Both the position numbers and the translations under genes were made by a program. This document shows positions 9,796 through 60,832 of a stretch of 62,775 nt of DNA, piece by piece. A model generated the notes under the pieces. It was not told the origin of the DNA and did not search any database. It saw nothing but the letters and a program-made list of their open reading frames with translations. Source of the DNA: Bacteroidota bacterium. Its GTDB lineage: Bacteria; Bacteroidota; Bacteroidia; Chitinophagales; Chitinophagaceae. The DNA lies in NCBI GenBank assembly GCA_030706685.1, contig JAUZOA010000021.1:1-62775 (forward strand), read 5' to 3'. Each line of letters begins with the position of its first letter. The first letter of the stretch is position 1.

Positions 9796-9898
9796 GATAG
9801 TAACCCGGTTGTCCGGGAAGACGAGAAGAAAAACGACTTGTAAATCAAAACTTCCTTCCTTTCTGTCTTACGGGCCATTTTCAAACTGAGACATTACG
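9796..9898. repeat. MITE-like intergenic element, subfamily II (copy G)
   Basis: About 103 bases inside the 9528-10040 gap. The left end GATAGTAACCCGGTT and the right end AAACTGAGACATTAC are inverted versions of the same terminal sequence seen elsewhere. The interior (TCCGGGAAGACGAGAAGAAA, then TTGTAAATCAAAACTTCC) aligns with the reverse complement of the element at 60721-60832. The 8-base flanks match at only about 4 positions, so no target duplication can be claimed. I see nothing else in the 9528-10040 gap beyond the leader regions of the two divergent genes. Confidence 0.65.
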
Positions 9899-19973: not shown

Positions 19974-22130
19974 TTAATGCAGCCATCGTTCAAAGAATTC
20001 CCAGGTACGTAACATCTGATCCATGCGTTGGCGGTTATTGCCGCTGCGGGTAAGCTCATGCGTGGCGCCGGGATGACGTACATATTCAACAGGGCGTCCT
20101 AATACTTTCAGGCTCCGGTAAAGCATCTCGCCTTCTACAAAACCGGTGCGCCGGTCATTATCACCATGAAAAATTATATAAGGCGTAGTAATATTTTCAA
20201 CATAGTTGATCGGCGACTCTCTTTGTAAAACAGCCTTAGTTCCTGCCTCCCAGGGATAACCGCCGAAATAATTTTGCACCAGCCTCCATGCATTGCCTTC
20301 ACCAAAAAACGTGGAGAGGTCATATACGCCCCTTTGCGAACAGGCGGCTTTGAAACGGTGATCATGCCCGATGATCCACGCAACAAGATAACCGGCATAC
20401 GACCCACCCGTCACTAAAAGCCTGGAGGTATCCGCCCATCCTTCCATGACGGTTTTATCCAGGGCTGATAACACATCACTGGCAGGTCCTGTACCCCAGT
20501 TATTAATATTGCTTCTTAAAAAATTTTCACCATAGCCCCCACTGCCACGCGGATTACAATATACCACGCCAAACCCTTTGCCGCAGAAAAACTGGAATTC
20601 ATGCCACATAGACAATTCACCCGGGCCCCACATCGCCGTCGGGCCACCATGAATTTCTAATAACAATGGATATTTTTTCCCCGGCTCAAATCCCACAGGT
20701 TTCATCACCCAGTATTCAATCGTTTGGCCAATATTGTTTTTAAAACTATGCTTTTCCGGTACAGAGATTTGTTTTTGCTGCAACCAACTATCATTCACAC
20801 CAGTCATTTTTTGAACGTTGGCAGCGTTCTCATCAGTCAGGTACAATTCTGAAGGATCAGTAACGGCCGTCTGTACATAGGCAAGTTTCCCGCCCGCCAT
20901 ATCAAAACTTAACAGGCCTGAATTCACATCTGTCAATTGGTTTACCTGTTTTGTTTTTACATCCAGCCGGTATAAAGGCGCTCCTCCATTGCTCTGGGCA
21001 GTGAAATAAATAAACTGGTCATCTTTACTCCATACCATATTACCGACATTCCTGTCAAAAGGAACAATGATCATATCTTTTTCAGTTCCTGTTAAGGGCA
21101 AAAGGGCCAGCGTGGGAACGGATACATAATTGACCTTGCTGAATTCAAAGGCCAGCCATTTTCCATTGTTCGACAATTTTGCATTGTTATAGGACATGCC
21201 TTCTTTGCCCAGCAGCTTGTGAAAGCCACTGCCATCTATACCGGTAATAAATATTTCAGACTCCTGTGAACGGTCAGGATGCTGAAGAGAATCTATATCA
21301 CCGGCTATAATGAATTGCCTGCCATCGGGAGTAAATTCCAGTTCGTTGAAACGGTAGAAGCCATGAGTGAGTGGCACAGGAATAGCATTGGGCTGAACAT
21401 TTACAAGAAAAAAATGATTGAAGCTTATATCAGCAGAAACATCCGATTCGCTCTGGAAATTCAATTTATCTAATACCGTCGCTTTTTTATCATTGGCATT
21501 CATTTCAAGCCAGGCTCTTACCTCGCCGAGTGTACCATCTGGATTGGGTTTAGCAGTTGATGATAGCATTTCTTCATTTTGCTTAAAGCCTGGTTTTTCC
21601 AACCACCAGGCCGGAACCTTCTTTCCGGGATCCAACAAAGAATCGTTCATCAATTCTTTGATCTTTACGGATGATGAAAAAGCGATTTGTTTTCCGTCCG
21701 GGCTCCACTTAGGCGCCGAAGCACCATACCTGGATTTGGTAAGTTGTATCGCTTCACCGCCGTCTAATGATAAAATAAAAATCTGCGGCTTGCCATCCGT
21801 TGTTCTTACAAAGGCTAATTGTTTACCATCAGGACTCCATGCCGGTTGCGATGCCCCATCCTTACTAAACGTTATTTGCCGGGGGACAGCGCCGGTTAGG
21901 GTACTTGTCATCCATACCTGGCTGGTATATTTATATTCCCATTTAGAACTGTCCGATTCGGGTTCGATACCCGTCACCACAAACGCCGCTGCACTGCCGT
22001 CTTCGGTGAGCGTAACACCGCTTATTGTTTTTATCTTCAACATATCGGTTACCAATACCGGCTGCTTGCCAGTTTGCGCATTGCCGATGATTGTTAAAAA
22101 AAGAACAGTCAAAACAAGAAGATAACGCAT
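19974..22130 (-). CDS. S9 family serine peptidase (prolyl oligopeptidase/DPP-IV type)
   Basis: A 718-residue secreted peptidase. The ATG at 22130 opens a signal peptide (MRYLLVLTVLFLTIIGNAQ). An upstream in-frame start at 22223 would run through a mobile repeat, so I reject it. The N-terminal half is a WD40-like beta-propeller (ASQPAWSPDGKQLAFVRT, GASAPKWSPDGKQIAFSS). The C-terminal alpha/beta-hydrolase domain has the GGSYAGY nucleophile elbow (Ser577), the Asp of GDNDRRTG and the His of GATHELTRSG. Expected role: peptide trimming in the periplasm or at the surface. Confidence 0.95.
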   Translation of the reverse strand: MRYLLVLTVLFLTIIGNAQTGKQPVLVTDMLKIKTISGVTLTEDGSAAAFVVTGIEPESDSSKWEYKYTSQVWMTSTLTGAVPRQITFSKDGASQPAWSPDGKQLAFVRTTDGKPQIFILSLDGGEAIQLTKSRYGASAPKWSPDGKQIAFSSSVKIKELMNDSLLDPGKKVPAWWLEKPGFKQNEEMLSSTAKPNPDGTLGEVRAWLEMNANDKKATVLDKLNFQSESDVSADISFNHFFLVNVQPNAIPVPLTHGFYRFNELEFTPDGRQFIIAGDIDSLQHPDRSQESEIFITGIDGSGFHKLLGKEGMSYNNAKLSNNGKWLAFEFSKVNYVSVPTLALLPLTGTEKDMIIVPFDRNVGNMVWSKDDQFIYFTAQSNGGAPLYRLDVKTKQVNQLTDVNSGLLSFDMAGGKLAYVQTAVTDPSELYLTDENAANVQKMTGVNDSWLQQKQISVPEKHSFKNNIGQTIEYWVMKPVGFEPGKKYPLLLEIHGGPTAMWGPGELSMWHEFQFFCGKGFGVVYCNPRGSGGYGENFLRSNINNWGTGPASDVLSALDKTVMEGWADTSRLLVTGGSYAGYLVAWIIGHDHRFKAACSQRGVYDLSTFFGEGNAWRLVQNYFGGYPWEAGTKAVLQRESPINYVENITTPYIIFHGDNDRRTGFVEGEMLYRSLKVLGRPVEYVRHPGATHELTRSGNNRQRMDQMLRTWEFFERWLH

Positions 22131-22204
22131 GGCAGAAAGTTTAAAGGTTTGCGAATAGAGTTTCAATATTACAGCATTACTTCGAAATACAGTTCTAATT
22201 TGAC

Positions 22205-22326
22205 AACAGTGTCTCAGTTTCAATATTTAGGTGGCCTCAGAGGACCGCCGAATAACAGGATAGTTTCTCTGTGACACTCTTTAACTCTGTGGCTCTCTGT
22301 GGCATATTTCAAACTGAGACACTATC
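22205..22326. mobile_element. MITE-like element, copy A, with perfect 8-bp target duplication
   Basis: 122 bases with inverted ends: AACAGTGTCTCAGTTT on the left, and AAACTGAGACACTATC on the right (its complement reads GATAGTGTCTCAGTTT). The identical 8-mer AATTTGAC flanks it on both sides (22197-22204 and 22327-22334), as expected for a target-site duplication. The interior carries phrases such as TCTCTGTGACACTC and CTCTGTGGCTCTCTGTGGC. It has no coding capacity. It lies between the S9 peptidase start and the tRNA gene, so it may influence both promoters. Confidence 0.88.
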
Positions 22327-22376
22327 AATTTGACTATGGCTATTTCTTACTTAAACAATATCTTTACCGCCCCATT

Positions 22377-22449
22377 GCCAACTTAGCTCAGCTGGCAGAG
22401 CATTTCATTCGTAATGAAAGGGTCGTCGGTTCGATTCCGATAGTTGGCT
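22377..22449 (+). tRNA. tRNA-Thr (anticodon CGT)
   Basis: A complete cloverleaf: acceptor GCCAACT/AGTTGGC with discriminator T, D stem GCTC/GAGC, anticodon stem TTTCA/TGAAA with loop TTCGTAA (CGT at 34-36, reads ACG). The variable loop is GGGTC-like, and the T arm is GTCGG-TTCGATT-CCGAT. The 3' CCA is not encoded. It is the only tRNA in the window. Confidence 0.96.
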
Positions 22450-22852
22450 CAAGCGTCGCCCTGGTTGAAGAAGTTCTTTTACTGTTAGTTTTCACCCTGC
22501 CGGAAAAAGTCTGTAGCCATAGCCGTTACAAACAGGAATAGACCCTTTTTCAAGGGATCAGCCAGTCGTCCGCTTATGGACGAATAAAGAGAAAATAGAA
22601 TGTTTTCTGAAATAGTGAGAACCCTGCTTAAAGCTCCCTCCGGAACGCACGATGAATGAAGGATAAACGCAGGATCGTACTGCCTATACACAACCCATAA
22701 GCTACCCGCAGGCTATCGGCGTGCAGGTGGTCTTCAGCGTTTGAGGTGAAAAGACCTTTGGGCTCAGTTCTTTGCCCGGAAGTTTTAAGGAGTTTGTATA
22801 AATGATGATAGCGCCCTGCTTCCATCATGTTGCTTACCTGCAGCCAATTCTT
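22450..22852. other. 403-base intergenic stretch after tRNA-Thr, no gene seen
   Basis: Only short frames without recognisable products occur here. Nothing resembles an integrase or a duplicated tRNA 3' end, so the tRNA is not visibly used as an integration site. Confidence 0.5.
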
Positions 22853-24658: not shown

Positions 24659-24733
24659 GGTAGTGCATCAGTTTGCCGGGAAGGCGATAAGAAAAAACGA
24701 TTTGCCGATCAAAATATCCCTTCTTCGGTAGTG
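24659..24733. repeat. relic end of MITE-like element, subfamily II (copy E)
   Basis: GGTAGTGCATCAGTTT at 24659 is a good terminal sequence. The text after it (GCCGGGAAGGCGATAAGAAA, then AACGATTTG) matches the interior of copies F and G. No inverted right end follows. Instead TTCGGTAGTG occurs again in the same direction at 24725-24734. I read it as a truncated copy. The rest of the 24512-24914 gap is empty apart from the terminator below. Confidence 0.5.
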
Positions 24734-35332: not shown

Positions 35333-35463
35333 GGCAGCGTCCCGGGGTGAAATATGGCCACAGAGTATCCCGGAGAAACAGGGAGCCGTGAGGGTTTCTC
35401 CGTGGCACTCTTTAACTCTGAGGTTCTCCGTGGCCATATAAATATTGAAACTGGGACACTGCC
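35333..35463. mobile_element. MITE-like element, copy B, with perfect 8-bp target duplication
   Basis: 131 bases. The left end GGCAGCGTCCCGGGGT and the right end AAACTGGGACACTGCC are inverted copies. GGCATCCG flanks it on both sides (35325-35332 and 35464-35471), and the match extends to 11 bases (CCGGCATCCGG) through coincidence with the element ends. The interior has GGCCACAGAGTATCCCGGAG and CTCTGAGGTTCTCCGTGGCC as inverted arms. It sits in the divergent promoter region between 34183 and 35592; the rest of that gap shows no gene. Confidence 0.88.
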
Positions 35464-46532: not shown

Positions 46533-46774
46533 GTGGTAGTGTGTTAATTGGCCGGGAAGCCGGGAAAAAAATTATTGGTAAATCAAATCTTATGGTCTCA
46601 GGTAGTGTCCCGGTTTCAATTTTCATGTTGACCACGGAGGATCACAGAGAAACAGAGAACCTCAGAAGGTGCCTGATTGTTTCTCGTGACCCTCTTTTAC
46701 GCTGTGGTTCTCTGCGGCCATGTCTCAAACCAGGACACTACCCGATCTCACCCCTCCCCGGCTTTTTGGTAGTG
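46533..46774. repeat. relic element (subfamily II) split by copy C
   Basis: GGTAGTGTGTTAATTGGCC at 46533, followed by GGGAAGCCGGGAAAAAAATT and TATTGGTAAATCAAATCTT, reproduces the left half of the subfamily II elements (copies E, F, G). It is interrupted at 46600 by copy C (46601-46742), then resumes as CCCCTCCCCGGCTTTTTGGTAGTGC. Removing copy C and one 8-base repeat restores a continuous relic of about 90 bases. Confidence 0.45.
46601..46742. mobile_element. MITE-like element, copy C, nested in an older element
   Basis: 142 bases. GGTAGTGTCCCGGTTTCAAT on the left and its inverted partner CTCAAACCAGGACACTACC on the right. The 8-base flanks TGGTCTCA (46593-46600) and CGATCTCA (46743-46750) agree at 6 of 8, so the duplication is present but worn. 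The interior has ACCACGGAGGATCACAGAGA and CTGTGGTTCTCTGCGGCC arms. The rest of the 46452-46814 gap belongs to the relic in which it sits. Confidence 0.8.
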
Positions 46775-48451: not shown

Positions 48452-48600
48452 GGTAAGAAACCCCATGTCTCCCGCTAAAACACAAAGAAACCCATGTCTC
48501 CCACTAAGACACTAAGAGCACAAAGCACTTATAATTGATTGAAATTTCTTTGTGATCTTAGTGTCTTAGTGGGAAAATGTTTTTCGACCAGGATACTGCC
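48452..48600. repeat. inverted-repeat element with ACTAAGACAC-type arms (copy I)
   Basis: CCCACTAAGACACTAAGAGC (48500 onward, to 48525) pairs with GATCTTAGTGTCTTAGTGGG (to 48573). On the left side the opening phrase is doubled: ACCCCATGTCTCCCGCTAAA and then ACCCATGTCTCCCACTAAGA. GACCAGGATACTGCC closes the right side and resembles the family's end AGGACACTACC, but no matching left end or 8-base duplication is visible. The rest of the 48285-48650 gap is empty. Confidence 0.65.
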
Positions 48601-49864: not shown

Positions 49865-50007
49865 GGTAATGGGTCAGTTTGAAATATGTCCACTGAGAAC
49901 CGCAGAGATAAAGAGTGCCACAGAGATACTATCATGAATCCTCTGAGATTCTCTGTTTCTCCGCGGTTCTCAGTGGCCCACATAAATATTGAAACTGACC
50001 CGCTACC
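49865..50007. mobile_element. MITE-like element, copy D, with perfect 8-bp target duplication
   Basis: 143 bases. GGTAATGGGTCAGTTTGAAA on the left; on the right GAAACTGACCCGCTACC (its complement reads GGTAGCGGGTCAGTTTC). TGTCACTT flanks both sides (49857-49864 and 50008-50015). The interior is a long imperfect hairpin: TGTCCACTGAGAACCGCAGA against CCGCGGTTCTCAGTGGCCCA. No coding capacity. It fills most of the 49748-50043 gap. Confidence 0.88.
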
Positions 50008-60720: not shown

Positions 60721-60832
60721 GATAGAGTCCCGGTTTGAAAATAGCCGGTGCGACGGGAAGGCGGGAAGTTCTGATTCACAAGTCTCTTTTTCTTCTCGTC
60801 TTACCGGCTTCCCGGCAAACTGATACACTACC
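60721..60832. mobile_element. MITE-like element, subfamily II (copy F)
   Basis: 112 bases. GATAGAGTCCCGGTTT on the left and AAACTGATACACTACC on the right. The flanks GAGAATTG (60713-60720) and CGGAATTG (60833-60840) match at 6 of 8. The interior (GACGGGAAGGCGGGAAG and CTTACCGGCTTCCCGGC as arms) is unlike copies A-D but aligns, reverse-complemented, with copy G at 9796. It lies in the divergent region between the NHL gene and the small gene at 61056; nothing else is seen there. Confidence 0.75.

Follow-up and report, generated by a model that had tools for sequence, protein, structure and literature searches.

A copy of a short non-coding element and the question of what moves it

How does a DNA element that encodes nothing come to carry the marks of transposition? 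Copy A, a short element lying in the 62,775-nucleotide stretch of a Bacteroidota bacterium genome analysed here (the window), raises this question. The first-pass annotation had described it as one of a family of elements with inverted ends, a perfect 8-bp target duplication and no coding capacity. Inspection of the sequence bears this out: two 16-base inverted ends face inward, the same 8-mer adjoins both (Table 1), and each of the six reading frames of its 122 bp is interrupted by a stop codon. Bases 4-16 of the left end equal the consensus of the ends of the IS1-like transposons described below. A tRNA-Thr (CGT) gene at 22377-22450 begins 42 bases past the right duplication, and a minus-strand frame at 19974-22223 has its nominal start codon inside the element; either may be affected by copy A.

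Copy A is not alone in the window. The end pattern of the first-pass annotation, allowing up to 3 mismatches, has 23 matches against 6.1 expected, and 23 was reached in none of 100 shuffles. A motif-free scan for inverted 16-mers (up to 4 mismatches) with identical flanking 8-mers, 60-5000 bp apart, returned exactly three pairs: copy A and the copies starting at 35333 and 49865, all of the copy A family. Further copies, with two types of core (alpha and beta), are given in Table 1. The window also contains another palindromic repeat at 48499-48574 (beginning CCCACTAAGACACTAAG) with 37-nt arms that are 86% complementary, around which the motif-free duplication scan found no end pair.

Table 1. 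Copy A, its parts and related elements in the window.
Feature	Coordinates	Strand	Remarks
MITE copy A	22205..22326	+	122 bp; core type alpha (CTCTGTGGCTCTCTGTGGC); foldback DNA, DNA fold z -4.8; core cluster of 23
Copy A, left 8-bp target duplication	22197..22204	+	AATTTGAC
Copy A, right 8-bp target duplication	22327..22334	+	AATTTGAC
Copy A, left terminal inverted repeat	22205..22220	+	AACAGTGTCTCAGTTT
Copy A, right terminal inverted repeat	22311..22326	-	GATAGTGTCTCAGTTT
Alpha-core copy	35333..35463	+	131 bp; perfect duplication GGCATCCG
Alpha-core copy	46601..46742	+	142 bp; flanks 6/8 alike (TGGTCTCA/CGATCTCA)
Alpha-like copy	49865..50007	+	143 bp; BLAST match to copy A; perfect duplication TGTCACTT; strongest foldback of five copies tested (z -8.2)
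Beta-core copy	60721..60832	+	112 bp; CCGGGAAG type; flanks 6/8 alike (GAGAATTG/CGGAATTG); weak foldback (z -2.0)
Probable decayed beta-core copy	9796..9898	+	flanks 4/8 alike
Single end and core piece	24659..24692	+	possible fragment of a beta-core copy
Single end and core piece	46535..46566	+	adjoins copy 46601; possible beta-core fragment

The miniature family in its own genome

As a BLAST query, copy A has 47 matches in its own genome, and the end motif occurs at 92 places there against 40 for a reversed control. Pair statistics, which cover the window and 100 loci of this genome (L001-L100), give 79 end pairs of 60-320 bp, some of them nested or overlapping. Among the 61 pairs of 90-160 bp, the flanking 8-mers are identical in 15 and differ by no more than two mismatches in 38, where 2000 runs of flank shuffling gave a mean of 1.9 and a maximum of 7. 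The expectation that the genome would hold further copies with matching flanks is thereby borne out. Exact duplication peaks at a length of 8 (15 pairs), with one pair at length 7 and none at 4-6 or 9-12. The pair criterion is conservative, the perfect-duplication copy at 49865-50007 not having been picked up. The duplicated 8-mers of the 38 elements with up to two mismatches are A/T-rich at their centre. The cores of these 38 miniatures fall into three clusters of 23, 10 and 5, whose members nowhere align across clusters over 45 nt or more at E 1e-3. The family has the characters by which MITEs are recognised: the elements are short and lack a transposase gene, are bounded by inverted ends and a duplication, exist in many dispersed copies, and have the ends of an autonomous transposon.

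Some miniatures stand in tandem (L044:1375-1666, L059:73-295 and L084:533-1027). Neighbouring copies in L044 and L059 have one 8-mer between them, which suggests that a duplicated target was re-used or that unequal recombination took place. At L076:540-764 two different cores are apparently joined end to end with no intervening 8-mer and a perfect outer duplication (AAAGAAAA), as if the double core had moved as one unit.

The same ends bound larger transposons

The end pattern was sought in 294 genomes of the window's taxonomic family, several of which have inward-facing ends 3.4-5.7 kb apart. Eight such large pairs were fetched by the end motif alone (L177-L184), and seven have perfect 8-bp duplications; the pair in G093 (L181) has no matching duplication, nor was one found for a 577-bp pair in G232 (L185). 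Two identical end-like matches in G042 are gene repeats and not elements. When these loci were searched for IS1-like genes, six of the seven large elements with perfect duplications proved to contain an IS1-like transposase gene, which is broken in G228.

Selection by the transposase led to the same ends. A species-genome collection scanned with a transposase alignment yielded at least 593 stretches with the pattern, at least 508 of them encoding relatives, and the best 80 of these at least 508 were kept as loci (L214-L293). A search for perfect 8-bp duplications adjoining inverted ends, made without the motif, found a pair in 64 of the 80 loci, 63 with the family end; here the perfection of the duplications and the presence of a transposase follow by construction, and the common end sequence does not. 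The first pair at L230 was a chance pair, and its proper ends were given by a motif scan, which added L230 and L261 (perfect duplications) and L292 (one mismatch in the duplication). Family ends thus bound 66 of the 80 transposase-chosen loci, 65 with perfect duplications and one with a single mismatch. At the remaining 14 loci the motif scan found no ends; in several of these the transposase gene sits near the end of a contig. The first-pass annotation had proposed looking for a transposase gene bounded by the ends of copy A, and such a gene indeed exists, IS1-like and carried in 2-5 kb transposons with 8-bp duplications.

Resolved hosts include Bacteroidota, Alpha-, Beta- and Gammaproteobacteria, Desulfarculus, Nitrospirae and Acidiferrales; ends were not found in two Ignavibacteriae loci. 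The assembled set comprises 73 elements of 1964-5690 bp (median 3299). Their sequences number 71, since L214 repeats the record of L180 and L269 is identical to L270. End positions 1, 6, 12, 14 and 16 are invariant in all 146 ends of these 73 elements, the two duplicate sequences included. Since the 1.08 Mb of L214-L293 yielded no miniature with family ends, it may be that only some Bacteroidota have them.

In the genome of copy A itself a single IS1-like transposase was found, an open 287-aa frame on contig C158, which is not the contig of the window. An end (GGTAGTGGTACAGTTTGAAATTA) lies 0.7 kb downstream of it, with GTAC at its centre where copy A has TCTC. The left end of this transposon lies beyond the contig start, and a RhuM-like gene runs off the contig; a second RhuM match, on contig C27, has no end motif.

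Origin of the miniatures

Comparison of the 38 miniatures with the 73 elements and the C158 piece gave 1168 alignments at E up to 0.1, of which all but 7 extend to within 12 nt of a miniature end. Most (1087) have a length of 15-25 nt, with a maximum of 42. The sequences thus give no sign that the miniatures are shortened transposons. When 394 other genomes of the phylum Bacteroidota were searched, the alpha core, with its CCACAGAG repeats, was present in 20. In 30 alpha-core loci that were fetched, the end motif is nearby at all three from the genome of copy A and at none of the 27 from elsewhere. A beta-like core without ends occurs in L216. In a genome of the same genus (G001) a different core (CACGGATGCACGGA) lies between ends of the same type, and some copies there have perfect 8-bp duplications.

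Internal deletion is the usual origin given for MITEs, and the miniatures might accordingly be deletion relics of the cargo transposons, possibly with the same mover. A few beta cores do align over 32-42 nt with transposon ends, which speaks for such an origin. We nevertheless consider it unlikely, given that the alignments are nearly all terminal and short, and that alpha cores occur in other genomes at loci devoid of the end motif. Capture of hairpins is preferred over internal deletion because miniatures and transposons have little but their ends of about 20 nt in common. We infer that pre-existing hairpin repeats were captured by the ends: the miniatures would have been born once a pair of such ends had enclosed hairpin sequences of a kind that other genomes contain independently. 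A distant genome of the phylum (G333, contig 24; L320:1480-1720) has repeats of the CTCTGTG/CCACAGAG type in a tandem array with a spacing of about 118 bp, without IS1-like ends.

The transposase is IS1-like

Five transposases, that of the genome of copy A included, were compared with family models. All five pass the cut-off of the Pfam model DDE_Tnp_IS1 (29-42 bits against 24.1), and all five score below the cut-off of 100 on the NCBIfam IS1 model (60.6-75.1 bits). In an hhalign comparison with InsB of E. coli IS1A the catalytic stretches align with a probability of 95 (E 3e-8), and four of six plasmid matches are already annotated as 'IS1 family transposase' in public records. IS1 duplications are 8-9 bp long. 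The full-length transposons agree with the family in this respect, their duplications being 8 bp long, and also in having ends that begin GGTRRTG.

Several IS families produce 8-bp duplications, so the miniatures could in principle be moved by another transposase of this kind (IS1595, IS256 or others) whose ends resemble those of the IS1-like transposons by chance. The first-pass annotation had named IS1595 as a candidate parent, and the IS1595 model does register on four of the five transposases (P0003 has no listed score). These scores, 24-34 bits, fall far under the cut-off of 75 while the Pfam IS1 cut-off is passed, and the IS1595 candidacy is not upheld. IS256/Mutator was tried as a parent and rejected, PF00872 (Transposase_mut) having no match in the genome of copy A. 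With an IS1-like gene in six of the seven large elements chosen by their ends, albeit at loci searched for IS1-like genes, movement by such another transposase appears very improbable. More improbable still is a REP/REPIN-type nature of the elements, with movement by a single-strand RAYT/TnpA-REP enzyme that recognises GTAG-headed palindromes. RAYT-type movement is not known to leave a target duplication, and the family has a strong 8-bp duplication signal and ends that also bound DDE transposons. In favour of this reading are the GTAG within the ends and the good DNA foldback of most window copies examined (four of five, with z between -3.8 and -8.2, against -2.0 for the other).

Probable mobilisation in trans and evidence of movement

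Matches to the end occur in 14 of the 15 family genomes with the transposase and in 76 of the 279 without it (294 genomes, apparently the same set in both searches; Fisher p 3e-7). Part of this association is to be expected, as any intact transposon contributes two ends of its own. Many ends without a transposase at E 1e-20 are found in G110 (12 end matches), G128 (14) and G103 (8), which suggests that the transposase was active there in the past.

Very probably an IS1-like DDE transposase acting in trans mobilises copy A, a miniature element that is not autonomous. The view of the first-pass annotation that the family, with its 8-bp duplications, is moved in trans gains support from the fact that the same ends bound IS1-like transposons and that one such transposase is encoded on contig C158. 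The IS1-like transposase, or a past relative of it, would recognise the GGTAGTGnnYCAGTTT-type ends of the miniatures, cut there, and join the element to target DNA whose strands have been cleaved 8 bases apart. The 8-bp duplication does not by itself identify cut-and-paste movement; IS1 uses more than one transposition pathway.

Full-length relatives have left traces of movement. In Sphingopyxis PET50 a 3316-bp element occurs in two identical copies, whose sites are unrelated and whose duplications differ. A 3370-bp element with perfect ends, flanked by CGCTGGTG, lies on a Mesorhizobium loti plasmid, and the corresponding site lacks the element on two further Mesorhizobium plasmids. At these empty sites the 60-base flanks match with 2-3 mismatches and overlap by exactly 8 bp, and the 8-mer is present once (CGCTGGTA, one base different). 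This pair of filled and empty sites is direct evidence of insertion for a full-length relative, and not for the miniatures. An empty site of copy A was sought in G001-G006 and none was recovered: similarity stops at about position 22195 of the window in G003 and earlier in G001, G002 and G006, and G004 and G005 have no match to the gene queried.

A Hoeflea element (L299) has the family ends and a perfect duplication, and no family ends were found in L298 or L301, which are also plasmid or phage matches. In L298, from an Acidiphilium multivorum plasmid, the IS1-like transposase adjoins a RES/Xre-type pair, with an IS256-matching stretch further right. L301:3001-3900, from the 321-kb Brevundimonas phage vB_BpoS-Gurke, is an unannotated stretch that encodes a protein distantly related to the IS1-like transposase (32% identity).

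Cargo of the transposons

All 72 transposase-bearing elements are longer than their transposase gene by 1109 bp or more, and a bare form is thus absent from the resolved set. Insertion sequences with passenger genes are known as 'transporter IS', and the present elements are of this kind, carrying an IS-type transposase and genes unrelated to transposition inside the same ends. Cargo was surveyed at 72 loci, with L270 excluded and both L180 and L214 retained. From each locus up to two frames were taken, the longest ones reaching 100 aa, which gave 135 frames, some of them possibly spurious. Pfam matches include Peptidase_M78 (22), HTH_3 (22) and P63C (14), and 19 frames match an NCBIfam spr1629-type repressor/antitoxin. 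PADLOC gave up to 20 matches for RmrA, 5 for RmrT, 14 for PD-Lambda-2_B, 17 for capP and 8 for capH, models that overlap on one kind of protein. RmrA and RmrT are the components of the RosmerTA defence system (PMC11883136). The cargo thus includes RosmerTA-like, XRE/M78 and P63C genes. The largest cargo cluster (37 elements) came from single linkage, which possibly joined unrelated frames, and was set aside.

Not every large element has an IS1-like transposase of its own. L184:884-6573 is a 5690-bp cassette with family-like ends (GGTAGTCCGTCAGTTTGAAA) and a perfect duplication CTCAGGCG. It encodes a Type ISP restriction-modification protein but lacks an IS1-like transposase; large cargo can therefore also be non-autonomous. 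Two elements of G272 agree over their left 307 bp and have transposases that are 97% identical as proteins, and at a filter of 85% identity over at least 300 nt the remainder differs. At the same filter L232/L234 and L233/L237 each have one common stretch of about 0.9 kb, over the transposase. Such comparisons suggest that cargo has been swapped between constant ends.

More tentatively, the near-invariant pair of ends of about 20 bp could be viewed as a pan-phylum IS1-like 'container' in which any payload moves, from a 100-bp hairpin to the 5.7-kb transposase-less restriction-modification cassette. The transposase form would never be bare, its swappable toxin-antitoxin/defence modules may serve as addiction genes, and in the genus of the window the ends would have captured and multiplied genomic hairpins. 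We regard this wider picture as possible, with somewhat more doubt than confidence. An orphan MITE family is tied to a concrete transposase, and a 20-base signature finds widespread IS1-like transposons whose cargo is in good part defence- or toxin-antitoxin-like. The signature draws element borders at base resolution, often the obstacle in the study of mobile defence genes. With cores unlike leftovers of the parent, the family also offers a test case for the birth of MITEs.

Comparison with known systems

The end sequence and the core strings searched for were not found in the PMC literature. Among the matches listed there was no description of a cargo-bearing IS1-like family, ISfinder and subscription journals lying outside this search, and the term 'IS1 family' is absent from a review of prokaryotic MITEs (PMC10969869). 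MITEs believed to be moved by an IS with the same ends are already known; the cargo-bearing IS1-like group looks new relative to the PMC matches listed.

IS1 itself, represented by IS1A of E. coli K-12 (L304), has a catalytic region homologous to that of the transposase here. The ends of IS1A start with GGTAATG and GGTGATG, and 11 and 8 of their 20 bases are as in the family end. IS1A is 768 bp long, with two overlapping frames (insA/insB) and no cargo, whereas the transposons here are 2-5 kb long with a single frame of about 287-306 aa; relative to InsB, their transposase has about 40 extra residues ahead of the glutamate motif. They depart from the classical IS1 layout (about 0.8 kb, two frames, no passenger genes) in having one frame and, in the 72 transposase-bearing loci, lengths of 1964-4951 bp. 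Single-frame members of IS1 do exist.

Tn7-like transposons have unrelated multi-protein machinery and a different target choice, whereas the transposons here consist of one IS1-like gene and 1-4 kb of cargo. The likeness is that Tn7-like cargo often includes defence genes (PMC8649781). A MITE of Porphyromonas gingivalis likewise belongs to the Bacteroidota and appears to be a different element (PMC4596501). A close parallel is MITEAba12 of Acinetobacter, a 113-bp non-coding element that has only its terminal repeats and the length of its duplication in common with a DDE insertion sequence, ISAba12. That parent has different ends (GGCTTTGTTGCACAAA), 9-bp duplications, a length of about 1 kb and a single transposase frame; MITEAba12 is thought to be moved in trans, and there too no derivation from an IS could be established (PMC6382973). 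The copy A family differs from MITEAba12 in having three types of core and parents that bear cargo.
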